Assembly (NCBI RefSeq): GCF_000026105.1
Contig: NC_008027.1
Coordinates: 1,112,501-1,176,500, forward strand
DNA length: 64,000 nucleotides
Reading direction: 5' to 3'
DNA from: Pseudomonas entomophila L48
GTDB lineage: Bacteria > Pseudomonadota > Gammaproteobacteria > Pseudomonadales > Pseudomonadaceae
Position numbers and translations under genes: made by a program. The notes beneath the pieces are model-generated. The model was given only the letters and a program-made list of their open reading frames with translations. It did not search any database and was not told the origin of the DNA. Shown here piece by piece: positions 3,823-8,951 of this stretch (the first letter of the stretch is position 1; the number at the start of each line of letters is the position of its first letter).

Positions 3823-4382
3823 TGAGCGAAGAAAACCAGGTTGAAGGCGAAGAGCTGCCGCACCTGTTGCTGGTGGACGACGACGCCACCTTTACCCGGG
3901 TGATGGCGCGGGCCATGGCCCGTCGCGGGTTTCGCGTGAGCACCGCGAGTTCCGCCGAAGAAGGTTTGAAGCTGGCCGAGCAGGACCTGCCGGACTACGC
4001 CACGCTGGACCTGAAGATGGAGGGGGACTCGGGCCTGGTGCTGCTGCCCAAGCTGCTGGAGCTTGACCCAGAGATGCGCGTGGTGATCCTGACCGGCTAC
4101 TCGAGCATCGCCACGGCGGTCGAGGCGGTCAAGCGCGGTGCCTGCAACTACCTGTGCAAACCGGCCGACGCCGACGACGTGTTGGCGGCGTTGCTCTCGG
4201 AGCACACCGACCTGGACACCCTGGTGCCGGAAAACCCAATGTCGGTGGATCGCCTGCAGTGGGAACACATCCAGCGCGTGCTGGGTGAGCACGAAGGCAA
4301 TATCTCCGCCACGGCGCGGGCACTGGGGATGCACCGGCGTACCTTGCAGCGCAAGCTGCAGAAGCGCCCGGTTCGTCGCTGA
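3819..4382 (+). CDS. roxR: Response regulator RoxR (RegA/PrrA/ActR family)
   Basis: 187 residues. The receiver domain has the acidic pocket VDDD (19-22), phospho-acceptor D64 in YATLDLKM and the switch region GYSSIATAVEAVKRGACNY. A Fis-type helix-turn-helix follows at the C-terminus (GNISATARALGMHRRTLQRK), which is the characteristic PrrA/RegA end. It is the partner of RoxS, a global redox regulator of respiratory genes. The start overlaps the roxS stop; a second ATG directly follows the first, so the true start may be 3822. A REP pair lies immediately downstream. Confidence 0.93.
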   Translation: MMSEENQVEGEELPHLLLVDDDATFTRVMARAMARRGFRVSTASSAEEGLKLAEQDLPDYATLDLKMEGDSGLVLLPKLLELDPEMRVVILTGYSSIATAVEAVKRGACNYLCKPADADDVLAALLSEHTDLDTLVPENPMSVDRLQWEHIQRVLGEHEGNISATARALGMHRRTLQRKLQKRPVRR

Positions 4383-4385
4383 CGG

Positions 4386-4459
4386 GTTCGCCGGCAAGCC
4401 GGCTCCTACGGGATTTGGCCGTTTGGACGATTACACGTAGGAGCCGGCTTGCCGGCGAA
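4386..4459. repeat. REP element pair (class GCCGGCAAGCCGGCTCCTAC)
   Basis: Two inverted copies of the P. putida REP core (left arm 4386-4410, right arm 4436-4459) flank a 25-nt spacer. They lie in the convergent gap between roxR and the 62-residue gene. The same class recurs in the window near 8876, 27523, 47214, 53058, 53581 and 62201. Confidence 0.9.
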
Positions 4460-4460
4460 A

Positions 4461-4479
4461 GGGCCGCCAAGCGGCCCCG
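4461..4479 (-). terminator. Weak hairpin terminator after the 62-residue gene
   Basis: On the minus strand GGGCCGC and GCGGCCC form a short stem followed by only three U residues. It lies a few bases past the stop codon at 4487 and may end the phospholipase-like operon together with the REP pair. Confidence 0.35.
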
Positions 4480-4486
4480 CCTTCTA

Positions 4487-4675
4487 TCAGGCTTTCACCC
4501 CCGACCGGTCAACCCGCACCGCCAATTGCCCGCTACCCGCAGGCGCCTCGAACGCCACCAGCCCTCCTGCCGGCACCTTGGCCCGGCCAATCACCTTGCC
4601 CGCCCGCAGCAGCTCCAGCGGCATGCCTTCCAACGACTGGCCCGAAGCCAGCTCCAGTTTGATCCTGATGTTCAT
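4487..4675 (-). CDS. Small conserved-looking protein co-transcribed with the phospholipase C-like gene
   Basis: 62 residues, starting MNIRIKLELASGQSLEGMPL and ending RVDRSGVKA. The ATG at 4675 is preceded by a strong AAGGAGGT ribosome-binding site placed in the 14-base gap after the phospholipase-like stop, which argues for a real gene in the same operon. There is no signal peptide, membrane segment or cysteine. Alternating hydrophobic residues suggest a small all-beta fold. I do not recognise the family. As the only partner in a LexA-boxed unit it could be an accessory or inhibitor of the enzyme, but that is inference. Confidence 0.7.
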   Translation of the reverse strand: MNIRIKLELASGQSLEGMPLELLRAGKVIGRAKVPAGGLVAFEAPAGSGQLAVRVDRSGVKA

Positions 4676-4689
4676 CTGTGACCTCCTTG

Positions 4690-6321
4690 TCACGCGTTGC
4701 GGTCGATGTAGGTGGTTGCCTTGCCGTCGAGGCTGGCGATCAGTTCCGGCGAGCCGCCGCGGAACTGGCGGAACAGGTTGCGCCCGCGCTGCTTGCCGTC
4801 CACCGGCACCTGCACAGTCGGGTGGAACTGGTCGGTCAGCTCGGCGTAGGTGCTCCAGGGGCCGATGTAGGACTCGTTGAGCTGCTCGGTCACGCTGAAG
4901 GCGTAGCGCACGGCATTGCCGCGCTGCCAGTTGAGGCCATCGGGCTCGCGGCGCTGCCAGCCATTGGCGACAATCGCCGGTGACCCGGTCGGCGCCTCGA
5001 TGTAGCCCGTGGGCTTGTTCGGCTTGTAGTCCTTGAGCAGCAGGTAGGTGCTCCAGCCCCACCAGTCGGCGGTGCGGTTGCGGTCGTTGAGGTCGTTGAC
5101 GTCCTTGCGCCGCAGCACGGTCTTGCCGTCATTGAAGTACAGCGGGGCGAAGTTACCGGGCACCAGGTCCTGCTCGGCGGCACGCAGGTCCGGCACCAGG
5201 CGCAGGGCGGCGTAGTCCTTGGCCAGCGGCACGCGGCCGTCGACGAAGGCCTGGAACACTTCGTCGGCCGAGCGCTGCACGGCGCGCCCGACCTGGCGGC
5301 GGTTGGCCACGTCGACCGTGTCGAAGTAGCGCTTGTCGCCATAGGCACGCCATTGCTCGCCCTCGGCGTTGCGCACGGCCAGGCCGTACTTGCTGTCTTC
5401 GTCGTGCATGAAGCGCGCGATCAGCGAGCCGACATCGCTGGGGGTGACGGTGTCGGCCAGCGCCTTGCGCGGCACCCGCAGGTGGCCGGCGGAGAACAGG
5501 TCGGTGAGGAAGTGGTCGGCGAAGGCGTTCATCGCATAGGCCAGTTGCAGGTCACGTTCGTTGCCGCTGGCACGCGCTTTCACGGCTTGCTGCAGGGCGC
5601 AGGTGTGGCCTGCCTGATAGGCCAGCAGGGCCCAGGGGCCGAAATGGTCCCAGTTGCTGGCGGCCAGTTTCAGGTAGCGGCCCAGGGGGAACAGGTCGGA
5701 GGCGAAGCTGCCGCCGCCGGTGATGCGGTTCCAGCGCGCCGACAGGGTGTCGCCCAGCGCGTCGTAGGCTTCGTGAGGCTGGCGGCCATCCTTGATGGCC
5801 TGGTTGGCGGCGCTGATTTCTTCCTGCATCACGGCCAGGATCGATTCGGCTTCGCTTTTCGCCGCTGGCAGGCGGGCGAGGGCGTCGAACGCCTGGGTGA
5901 AGCGCTCGAGGCGCTCGGCGTCGTTCGCGCCATCGGCGATCGGGCGCTCGGGCACACCGTAGAAGTCACCGCCCAAGGCGATCACCTGGCCGTAGGTCAG
6001 GCTCAGGCCGTTGGGCAGTGGCAGCGGCGATTGGTGGGCGGGGATACCGGCTTGCCCAGCCTCGAAGCGCAGCAGGGTGTTGTCACCGATGGCGGTATGT
6101 TCTGCGCCTTCAAAGAACAGCTCCGGGCCACGCTTGGGTGAAGCGGGCGGTACGGCAAAGCGGTGGTACTTGAGCGTGTGGTGCCCGTGCATCACCAGCA
6201 CCAGATGGCTGTCCGGGCCGGGAAGGGCGACGCCTTGCGTGTCGAATAGCTGGTCGAGGTCGGCGACCACCAAGCTGGCCTGGGCCTGAAGGGCCGCAGG
6301 CGGGGTTTGCATGCCTGACAT
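4690..6321 (-). CDS. Zinc-dependent phospholipase C-like protein, non-secreted
   Basis: 543 residues. The core carries metal-ligand motifs of the zinc-dependent phospholipase C / S1-P1 fold: D225 and H239 (14 apart), H270-x3-D274-x5-H280 in DHFLTDLFSAGH, then H306 followed by D/E residues. The 14, 4 and 6 residue spacings equal those of the Bacillus cereus PLC ligands D55/H69/H118/D122/H128. Unlike secreted PLCs there is no signal peptide (MSGMQTPPAALQAQASLVVA), and long N- and C-terminal extensions surround the core. The start is preceded by AAGGAG. A near-consensus LexA box lies 40-55 bases upstream, so expression is probably part of the SOS response. The exact substrate is unknown. Confidence 0.7.
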   Translation of the reverse strand: MSGMQTPPAALQAQASLVVADLDQLFDTQGVALPGPDSHLVLVMHGHHTLKYHRFAVPPASPKRGPELFFEGAEHTAIGDNTLLRFEAGQAGIPAHQSPLPLPNGLSLTYGQVIALGGDFYGVPERPIADGANDAERLERFTQAFDALARLPAAKSEAESILAVMQEEISAANQAIKDGRQPHEAYDALGDTLSARWNRITGGGSFASDLFPLGRYLKLAASNWDHFGPWALLAYQAGHTCALQQAVKARASGNERDLQLAYAMNAFADHFLTDLFSAGHLRVPRKALADTVTPSDVGSLIARFMHDEDSKYGLAVRNAEGEQWRAYGDKRYFDTVDVANRRQVGRAVQRSADEVFQAFVDGRVPLAKDYAALRLVPDLRAAEQDLVPGNFAPLYFNDGKTVLRRKDVNDLNDRNRTADWWGWSTYLLLKDYKPNKPTGYIEAPTGSPAIVANGWQRREPDGLNWQRGNAVRYAFSVTEQLNESYIGPWSTYAELTDQFHPTVQVPVDGKQRGRNLFRQFRGGSPELIASLDGKATTYIDRNA

Positions 6322-6360
6322 GATTTGCTCCTTGCAATCTCTGGATTGTCCATTTTTATA

Positions 6361-6376
6361 CTGTATGTATATACAG
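6361..6376 (-). promoter_or_regulatory. LexA (SOS) box upstream of the phospholipase C-like operon
   Basis: CTGTATGTATATACAG, extended TACTGTATGTATATACAGTG (6359-6378), matches the E. coli-type 20-bp LexA consensus at 18 positions. It sits 40-55 bases upstream of the minus-strand ATG at 6321, overlapping the AT-rich promoter (TATAAA just downstream on the minus strand). It is about 135 bases from the divergent AEC transporter gene and could touch that promoter too, but position favours the phospholipase-like gene. Confidence 0.8.
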
Positions 6377-6510
6377 TGAAATTCACTATATGCTGGATTT
6401 CTCCTACGTCAAGGTCTGTTTGTGCGGGTAACCGGCACCTGCGGCGGGCGCAAGCCCATGGCACTGACGTATGATTGCTCCCCTAACGAATACCCTCAGG
6501 ATCACGCTGC

Positions 6511-7452
6511 ATGCTCGCCCTTCTCATCCAGACACTGAACATCACGGCACCTGTGTTCGCCATGCTGTTCATGGGCGTGCTGCTCAAGCGCATCCGCTTG
6601 ATCGACGACAACTTCAACAAGGTCGCTTCGACGCTGGTGTTCAACGTGTGCATGCCGGCGCTGCTGTTCCTCGGCATCTACCACGCCGACCTGGCAACGG
6701 CGGTCAAGCCCGGGGTGATCCTCTACTTCATCGCTGCCACGCTGGTGTGCTTCGGCCTGGCCTGGTGCCTGGCGATCTGGCGCTGCCCGCCGGCAGACCG
6801 GGGCATCTACACCCAGGGCGCGTTTCGCGGCAACAATGGCGTGATCGGCCTGGCACTGGCGGCCAGCCTGTATGGCGACTACGGTATATCCCTCGGCGCG
6901 GTACTGGCCGGGCTGGTGATCCTCATGTACAACTCGCTGTCGGCCGTGGTGCTGGCGGTATACAGCCCGGACCTGAAGTCCGACCCGTGGAGCATCTGCA
7001 AGAGCATCCTCAGCAATCCGTTGATCATCAGTGTGCTGCTGGCCACGCCCATGGCTTATGGCCAGGTGCCGCTGCCCAACTGGCTGCTGACCTCGGGCGA
7101 CTACCTGGCGCAGATGACCCTGCCGCTGGCGCTGATCTGCATCGGCGGCACCTTGTCGATGGCGGCGCTGCGCGACAGTGGCCGGCTGGCGTTCGACGTC
7201 AGCCTGGTGAAAATGGTCTGGCTGCCACTGCTGGGGACGCTGGGCGCTTGGTTGTGCGGTTTTCGCGGCGCCGAGCTGGGCATCCTGTTCCTCTACATCG
7301 GCAGCCCTACCGCGGCGGCCAGTTATGTGATGGCGCGGGCGGCCAATGGCAACCACGAACTGGCGGCGTCGATCATCGTGATCACCACCTTGATGGCGGC
7401 GATTACCACGAACATCGGTATCTTCTTCTTGCAATGGGGTGGATGGATCTAG
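6511..7452 (+). CDS. AEC (auxin efflux carrier) family transporter
   Basis: 313 residues with about ten hydrophobic segments. Family marks are the N-terminal FAMLFMGVLLKRIRLID followed by VFNVCMPALLFLGI, the internal repeat half around residue 170 (LSNPLIISVLLATPMAYGQV), and the C-terminal FLYIGSPTAAASYVMA. AEC proteins are inner-membrane secondary transporters for organic acids such as malonate or malate; the substrate here cannot be read from sequence. The ribosome-binding site before the ATG is weak. It is divergent from the LexA-boxed operon and 50 bases ahead of aroP, with which it may share a transcript. Confidence 0.85.
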   Translation: MLALLIQTLNITAPVFAMLFMGVLLKRIRLIDDNFNKVASTLVFNVCMPALLFLGIYHADLATAVKPGVILYFIAATLVCFGLAWCLAIWRCPPADRGIYTQGAFRGNNGVIGLALAASLYGDYGISLGAVLAGLVILMYNSLSAVVLAVYSPDLKSDPWSICKSILSNPLIISVLLATPMAYGQVPLPNWLLTSGDYLAQMTLPLALICIGGTLSMAALRDSGRLAFDVSLVKMVWLPLLGTLGAWLCGFRGAELGILFLYIGSPTAAASYVMARAANGNHELAASIIVITTLMAAITTNIGIFFLQWGGWI

Positions 7453-8875: not shown

Positions 8876-8951
8876 GGCCCTTTCGCCGGCAAGCCGGCTC
8901 CTACAGGTATTGCACGCACCCTGTAGGAGCCGGCTTGCCGGCGAAAGGGCC
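8876..8951. repeat. REP element pair with 31-bp inverted arms
   Basis: GGCCCTTTCGCCGGCAAGCC and following bases to CCTACAG are repeated inverted around a 14-nt spacer, directly after aroP and before the convergent decarboxylase-like gene. The perfect arms could form a cruciform or long RNA hairpin and may double as a bidirectional terminator. Confidence 0.9.

Follow-up and report, generated by a model that had tools for sequence, protein, structure and literature searches.

A conserved LexA-type box before a predicted phospholipase C-like hydrolase gene pair in Pseudomonas entomophila L48

Genes and features at the locus

We analysed a 64,000-nucleotide stretch of the genome of Pseudomonas entomophila L48 (NC_008027.1, positions 1,112,501 to 1,176,500; hereafter the window, to whose first letter coordinates refer unless a contig or locus is named). 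In it, a LexA-type box lies between a leftward gene for a phospholipase C (PLC)-like hydrolase, followed by a small partner gene, and a divergent transporter gene. An earlier interpretation made from the letters alone (the sequence-only reading) had proposed that the box is a LexA site controlling a phospholipase C-like operon. In this work, we read the gene pair as a previously unrecognised operon of the LexA regulon. The joint claim that the box is a true LexA operator, that the two genes form an operon and that the enzyme belongs to the PLC / S1-P1 class is, in our estimate, correct with a probability of about 0.85. The features are as follows.

4487..4675, minus strand: 62-amino-acid partner gene, 14 nt after the stop codon of the first gene, with its own Shine-Dalgarno-like sequence AAGGAGGT (4681-4688).
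4690..6321, minus strand: 543-amino-acid predicted metal-dependent hydrolase, in no curated family, whose core resembles PLC and S1-P1 nucleases and whose C-terminus holds a latrotoxin-like beta domain.
4696..4956, minus strand: residues 456-542, latrotoxin-related beta domain, matching alpha-latrotoxin at about residues 357-455.
5227..6114, minus strand: residues 70-365, helical core aligning with alpha-toxin, Bacillus cereus phospholipase C and S1-P1 nucleases (fold matches).
5482..5514, minus strand: residues 270-280, putative metal-site motif H-x3-D-x5-H (invariant residues).
6328..6333, minus strand: Shine-Dalgarno-like AAGGAG of the first gene, read from the sequence; AAGG is conserved among orthologues.
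6361..6376, no strand: predicted LexA operator, 16-bp core CTGTATGTATATACAG (palindrome match and conservation in orthologues).
6385..6390, minus strand: -10 element TATAGT, 16-bp spacer (promoter scan and orthologue conservation).
6407..6412, minus strand: -35 element TTGACG, part of the sole promoter-like site in 4300-6600 and within the stretch conserved in orthologues.
6511-7452, rightward: divergent transporter gene (Pfam Mem_trans match).

The LexA-like box and its promoter

The 20-bp E. coli-type LexA consensus is TACTGTATATATATACAGTA. The box at 6359-6378 matches it at 18 of 20 positions and differs at two, which confirms both the sequence and the count given by the sequence-only reading. 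Its core at 6361-6376 is a CTGT-N8-ACAG palindrome near the consensus, with one mismatch in 16 to CTGTATATATATACAG, and is the only site in the window with three or fewer mismatches to the LexA core, where shuffled sequences lead one to expect 0.02. Counted from the ATG (at 6321) of the open reading frame (ORF) 4690-6321 on the minus strand, this 16-bp core occupies bases 40 to 55 upstream, the distance that had been claimed.

A promoter scan of 4300-6600 yielded one sigma-70-like site only, TTGACG-16-TATAGT at 6412-6385 on the minus strand, with 0.2 expected. The box lies directly downstream of the predicted -10 element. Because this single promoter and the stretch conserved among orthologues (see below) both place the -10 just upstream of the box, transcription would start at about 6378, beneath the box. 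The earlier statement that the box overlaps the likely promoter was therefore right in kind.

We then scanned the whole genome (5,888,780 bases, a single contig) for the LexA core and used the reversed pattern as control. Twelve sites with three or fewer mismatches were found, compared to two for the control; none has zero mismatches and only two have one, CTGTATGTATATACAG being one of them. Near the 12 sites lie lexA, dinG, a PA0069-type radical SAM gene and DNA polymerase IV (NCBIfam names), as well as a YebG-like gene whose NCBIfam score is under the cut-off of that model, and one site adjoins the grpE side of a probable recN, assigned by eye. In this genome the pattern recovers textbook SOS genes; certain others of the 12 sites, for example the one before hutF, look like chance matches. 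The lexA gene of the host was identified with TIGR00498 (253 bits, cut-off 111), and its own box CTGTATAAAAAGACAG, 11 bases 5' of the lexA ATG, is of the same kind as the one at 6361-6376. The other one-mismatch box of the genome (G000:C1:4040990-4041005, locus L002) lies 15 bases before a 102-amino-acid ORF having no NCBIfam match.

Conservation of the box with the hydrolase gene

A protein search of 199 genomes of the genus Pseudomonas found the hydrolase ORF in 70 of them, decayed copies counted in, and 70 loci were then examined, leaving out the remnants in genome G087. Taking an open frame of at least 375 amino acids as an intact copy, 68 of the 70 loci qualify, and the box is present in 67 of these, starting at -53 to -57 relative to the ATG. 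We also examined a named set from GTDB, the best 80 of 163 relatives, whose genomes overlap with the 199-genome set; here 79 of 80 loci have the box, again starting at -53 to -57. The sole intact copy of the genus set without a box (L043) is a second paralogue within one genome, and the exception in the named set (L123, P. rubra) is the same paralogue. Box-bearing species include P. fluorescens, P. protegens, P. chlororaphis, P. mosselii and P. entomophila. Thus the site is conserved in orthologous loci (67/68, and 79/80 among the best 80 of 163), one of the points on which the sequence-only reading had staked its proposal, and comparison of sequences strongly supports LexA control.

In a pooled non-redundant set of 124 distinct upstream regions (L043, L123, L081 and L082 left out), the box has 0, 1, 2 and 3 mismatches in 6, 65, 50 and 3 regions, respectively. 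The box carries 1.79 bits of information per base on average, the 60 bases above it 0.63 and the 30 bases below it 0.58. Above the box, a conserved stretch at about -38 to -9 before it contains TTGACG and, separated from it by 16 bases, TATGCT, which reads TATAGT in the window; on the other side of the box, conservation across orthologues is most marked in the Shine-Dalgarno region.

Two kinds of deviating copies were seen. The second paralogue (L043 1970-3619; L123), which has no LexA box, is followed by a small partner gene and then by a further gene that matches a von Willebrand A domain with a score at the cut-off. Genomes G087, G139 and G059 hold decayed or truncated copies of the hydrolase, and the G059 remnant keeps a LexA-like box upstream (2 mismatches).

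Hydrolase or divergent transporter

The box sits in an intergenic region shared with the transporter gene at 6511, 134 bases before the transporter ATG, and could on that ground be serving the transporter, or be there by chance. A chance site is opposed by the expectation of 0.02 in the window, and both possibilities are opposed by the nearly fixed distance to the hydrolase ATG across orthologues. Furthermore, the transporter gene was found in 119 of 119 genus genomes tested, yet among the best 30 transporter loci the box occurs only where the hydrolase exists (8/8 genomes with the hydrolase, 0/22 without it); the 22 loci lacking the hydrolase have no box within 4 mismatches across 400 bases. 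Conversely, a transporter match was found upstream in the examined flank of 40 of 150 hydrolase loci and in none of the other 110, several of which have, by eye, a different ORF upstream with the box still at the hydrolase. Given the low expectation and a box that tracks the hydrolase, we rejected the chance or transporter-serving box, which as far as sequence can tell is highly improbable. For the comparison with the P. putida group that the sequence-only reading had called for, it is a caveat that many of the closest relatives, judged by transporter sequence, do not have the gene at all (22 of the 30 best transporter loci).

The partner gene and three architectures

The 148 pooled hydrolase copies fall into three length classes: 62 of about 545 amino acids, 50 of about 435 that are without the latrotoxin-like domain, and 36 of about 385 that are without both this domain and the first 50-60 residues. 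The latrotoxin-like domain is hence absent from two of three architectures. By pattern and inspection, a small ORF follows the hydrolase in 62/62, 49/50 and 0/36 copies of these classes, respectively, L149 being the one longer-class locus where none was recognised. Because the N-terminal segment and the small protein are jointly absent in the class of about 385 amino acids, an interaction between the two is suggested.

We take the small ORF to be a real gene because its mismatches fall mainly on codon position 3 (41:37:139 for positions 1:2:3 among ten close relatives, some pooled twice). In 119 genus genomes the small gene was found in 30, always beside the hydrolase or hydrolase remnants. 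Its position, linkage and codon pattern support the two-gene operon of the sequence-only reading, in which the hydrolase and the 62-amino-acid gene would be co-transcribed.

Fold and family of the hydrolase

The 543-amino-acid protein has no Pfam and no NCBIfam match, and Pfam profiles gave 0 families for all 77 aligned family members (the hydrolase and 76 relatives), including the zinc-dependent phospholipase C profile PF00882. An AlphaFold2 model made from the 77-sequence alignment reached a predicted local distance difference test score (pLDDT) of 87.6 and superseded an earlier model from 32 sequences (pLDDT 69.5). The core of the model resembles zinc phospholipase C and S1/P1 nucleases, and residues H270, D274 and H280 are invariant in 148/148 copies; other His and Asp residues are invariant too and look ligand-like. 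The profile of the 32-row alignment gave nothing significant against solved structures (best E 0.45), probably since its columns for the C-terminal domain are mostly gaps. The matches from a fold search against viral proteins were for the most part short, the top ones spanning about 80-200 columns; some were to proteins named as capsid, tail or stabilization proteins and many were unnamed, and they probably reflect the C-terminal beta domain of the model. The nearest named relative, from P. entomophila COR5, is 97% identical, and most named relatives are called "phospholipase C"-type in the source databases. The earlier label "phospholipase C-like" is supported at the level of fold and is in line with the names of most named relatives, with no curated family behind it.

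Zinc-dependent phospholipases C have an N-terminal Trp as zinc ligand after removal of the signal peptide. The hydrolase sequence shows no signal-like or hydrophobic N-terminus and its structural alignment begins at internal residues 70-71, so no such Trp ligand was found; the product is probably a soluble, cytosolic enzyme.

The fold leaves room for a nuclease that degrades nucleic acid or nucleotides after damage, for clean-up, for nutrient recovery or as a suicide response to phage. The fold matches include the S1/P1-type enzymes SmNuc1 and TBN1, the box would link the gene to DNA damage, and nucleic acid would be within reach of a cytosolic enzyme. The alpha-toxin-type phospholipases C nevertheless score about two Z units higher (8.6 vs 6.5), a difference that is weak evidence, and PADLOC models gave 0 families for the hydrolase, for 60 amino acids of the partner and for two distant relatives. 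We consider the nuclease unlikely, and a known anti-phage defence protein was rejected for want of a PADLOC match.

Neighbourhood and distribution

The surroundings of the gene pair are steady, with a GntR-type regulator and/or a roxR-like regulator downstream in 144/150 hydrolase loci, and the hydrolase core is well conserved and not polymorphic. The family is rare beyond Pseudomonas: of 398 genomes sampled across the phylum, 6 have a match, namely 5 Pseudomonas and 1 other, and protein databases add relatives in Tistrella, Azospirillum, Burkholderia, a Rhizobium plasmid and metagenomes. In the one non-Pseudomonas locus fetched (L170), no LexA-like box was seen by eye in the stretch viewed. 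No family match was found in 50,697 phage records and two distant ones were found in 72,556 plasmid records, on which ground we rejected a mobile or phage origin. Within the window, paired inverted repeats resembling repetitive extragenic palindromic sequences (ctttcgccggcaagccggctcctac type, by eye) lie at about 4385-4465, behind the roxR-like gene, and at about 8883-8950, behind an amino-acid permease gene.

These data bear on two readings of the function. The first is a released, colicin-like toxin, made after damage and freed by lysis of other cause, which would hit the membranes of competitors or eukaryotes and use the latrotoxin-like domain for binding or membrane contact. A protein without signal-like N-terminus under SOS control would resemble the lysis-released bacteriocins, the core fold is like that of secreted alpha-toxins, and one distant relative, a metagenome protein of 815 amino acids (P0166), carries a C-terminal Tectonin domain. 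The latrotoxin-related C-terminal domain also fits, as latrotoxins are set free when the cell that makes them disintegrates (PMC3482391). Against this, the classes of about 435 and 385 amino acids keep the LexA box without the latrotoxin-like domain, the partner is absent in the latter class and so is no obligatory immunity protein, and the steady neighbourhood, the core that is not polymorphic and the phage and plasmid counts also weigh against a toxin. We regard the released toxin as rather unlikely, though less so than the nuclease.

The second is membrane maintenance, that is, phospholipid remodelling without killing, for example in filamentation after SOS. The steady chromosomal neighbourhood and the well conserved core would agree with it. 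The patchy distribution (70/199 genomes) is unexpected for maintenance and the latrotoxin-like module also speaks against it, and we give this reading as little credence as the nuclease.

Proposed mechanism and meaning

From the sequence, we infer LexA binding, induction by damage, catalysis, substrate and target in the following scheme. In the undamaged cell, LexA would sit over the transcription start, just below a good sigma-70 promoter, and keep the operon off; DNA damage would turn it on through RecA-stimulated self-cleavage of LexA. The first gene would give a metal-dependent hydrolase of the PLC / S1-P1 fold, with the latrotoxin-related C-terminal beta domain in P. entomophila L48, which may hydrolyse a phosphodiester or phospholipid, and the second a small dedicated partner, perhaps a chaperone or restraint. 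In a heavily damaged cell the enzyme might attack phospholipid, the own membrane first, and so cause or complete lysis of the SOS-on subpopulation, whose contents would be released.

This last step, the self-directed membrane attack and lysis, is tentative, as are the release, lysis or remodelling of the membrane that the sequence-only reading had suggested. We favour it because the protein looks cytosolic, is conserved and not polymorphic, has a steady neighbourhood and can dispense with the latrotoxin-like domain; it is slightly ahead of the released toxin, with the nuclease and remodelling behind. Somewhat more doubtful is the full picture, in which environmental Pseudomonas would stably keep a programmed-lysis system on the chromosome: a cytosolic PLC-like enzyme, directly controlled by LexA, would act from within on the membrane of its own cell after irreparable DNA damage, with the 62-amino-acid partner modulating it. 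If true, this would be a type of SOS death effector distinct from the lysis cassettes of phages and tailocins, from TisB-like peptides and from the lysis proteins of colicins.

SOS regulons are usually seen as repair, mutagenesis and division control together with prophage and bacteriocin genes. The LexA operator is strictly kept before the hydrolase family, and making the enzyme after DNA damage would therefore be under selection. The gene pair is a candidate means by which pseudomonads with DNA damage could lyse, release vesicles or DNA, or arm themselves, and the enzyme belongs to a family annotated as "phospholipase" for which neither Pfam nor NCBIfam has a matching curated model. Judged by titles and the starts of abstracts, the literature searches brought up no paper linking LexA with this hydrolase family; a regulon database or a closed paper may already contain such a prediction.

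The genome has a second lipolytic gene with a LexA-like box, which lies outside the window and encodes a PueAB-type polyurethane esterase (NCBIfam); the box, CTGTATGTATGTACAG at G000:C1:2306685-2306700 (L005 1501-1516), starts 164 bases before the esterase ATG. Among 30 orthologous esterase loci, the best from 80 matching genomes, a box with three or fewer mismatches was found in 7/7 of those having the MPVFDY-type start of the window genome, and the other 23 have no box within 4 mismatches. Should the programmed-lysis picture hold, this esterase would extend the tie between lipolysis and the SOS response in the clade beyond the hydrolase.

Comparison with known systems

PlcN of P. protegens is known for insect killing and presumably belongs to another phospholipase C family. 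We considered a link to it and found none, with no sequence comparison behind that; PlcN is described in PMC7784888.

The hydrolase resembles zinc PLC (alpha-toxin, B. cereus PLC) and the S1/P1 nucleases in its helical core, its H-x3-D-x5-H motif and further invariant His and Asp residues; unlike them, it is without signal-like N-terminus, N-terminal Trp ligand and Pfam match and has extra N- and C-terminal parts. PMC3482391 proposes that the Het-C hydrolase domain (PF07217), PLC and S1/P1 have a fold and an active site in common; the HET-C passages of PMC12881547 concern fungi. We rejected membership in Het-C, since neither the hydrolase nor its 76 aligned relatives have a Pfam match. The PF07217 match of this genome is a separate gene elsewhere, outside the window (G000:C1:4678956-4679636).

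The C-terminus of the hydrolase holds a beta domain related to latrotoxins; unlike latrotoxins, the hydrolase has no ankyrin repeats or any other Pfam domain, and the beta domain occurs in one of its three architectures only. Latrotoxin C-terminal domains in bacterial toxins are treated in PMC3482391, and the part dealt with in the passages concerned differs from the part matched by the hydrolase.

Like SOS-controlled colicins and the lysis genes of phages and tailocins, the gene pair would encode a potentially lytic product switched on by DNA damage; it differs from them in being chromosomal with steady neighbours, in having no obligatory immunity gene and in its fold. Finally, as in the LexA regulon of Pseudomonas, an E. 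coli-type palindrome lies near the gene start, as it does here for lexA, dinG and DNA polymerase IV, although the gene behind the box encodes a predicted hydrolase and so falls outside the repair, polymerase and division genes.
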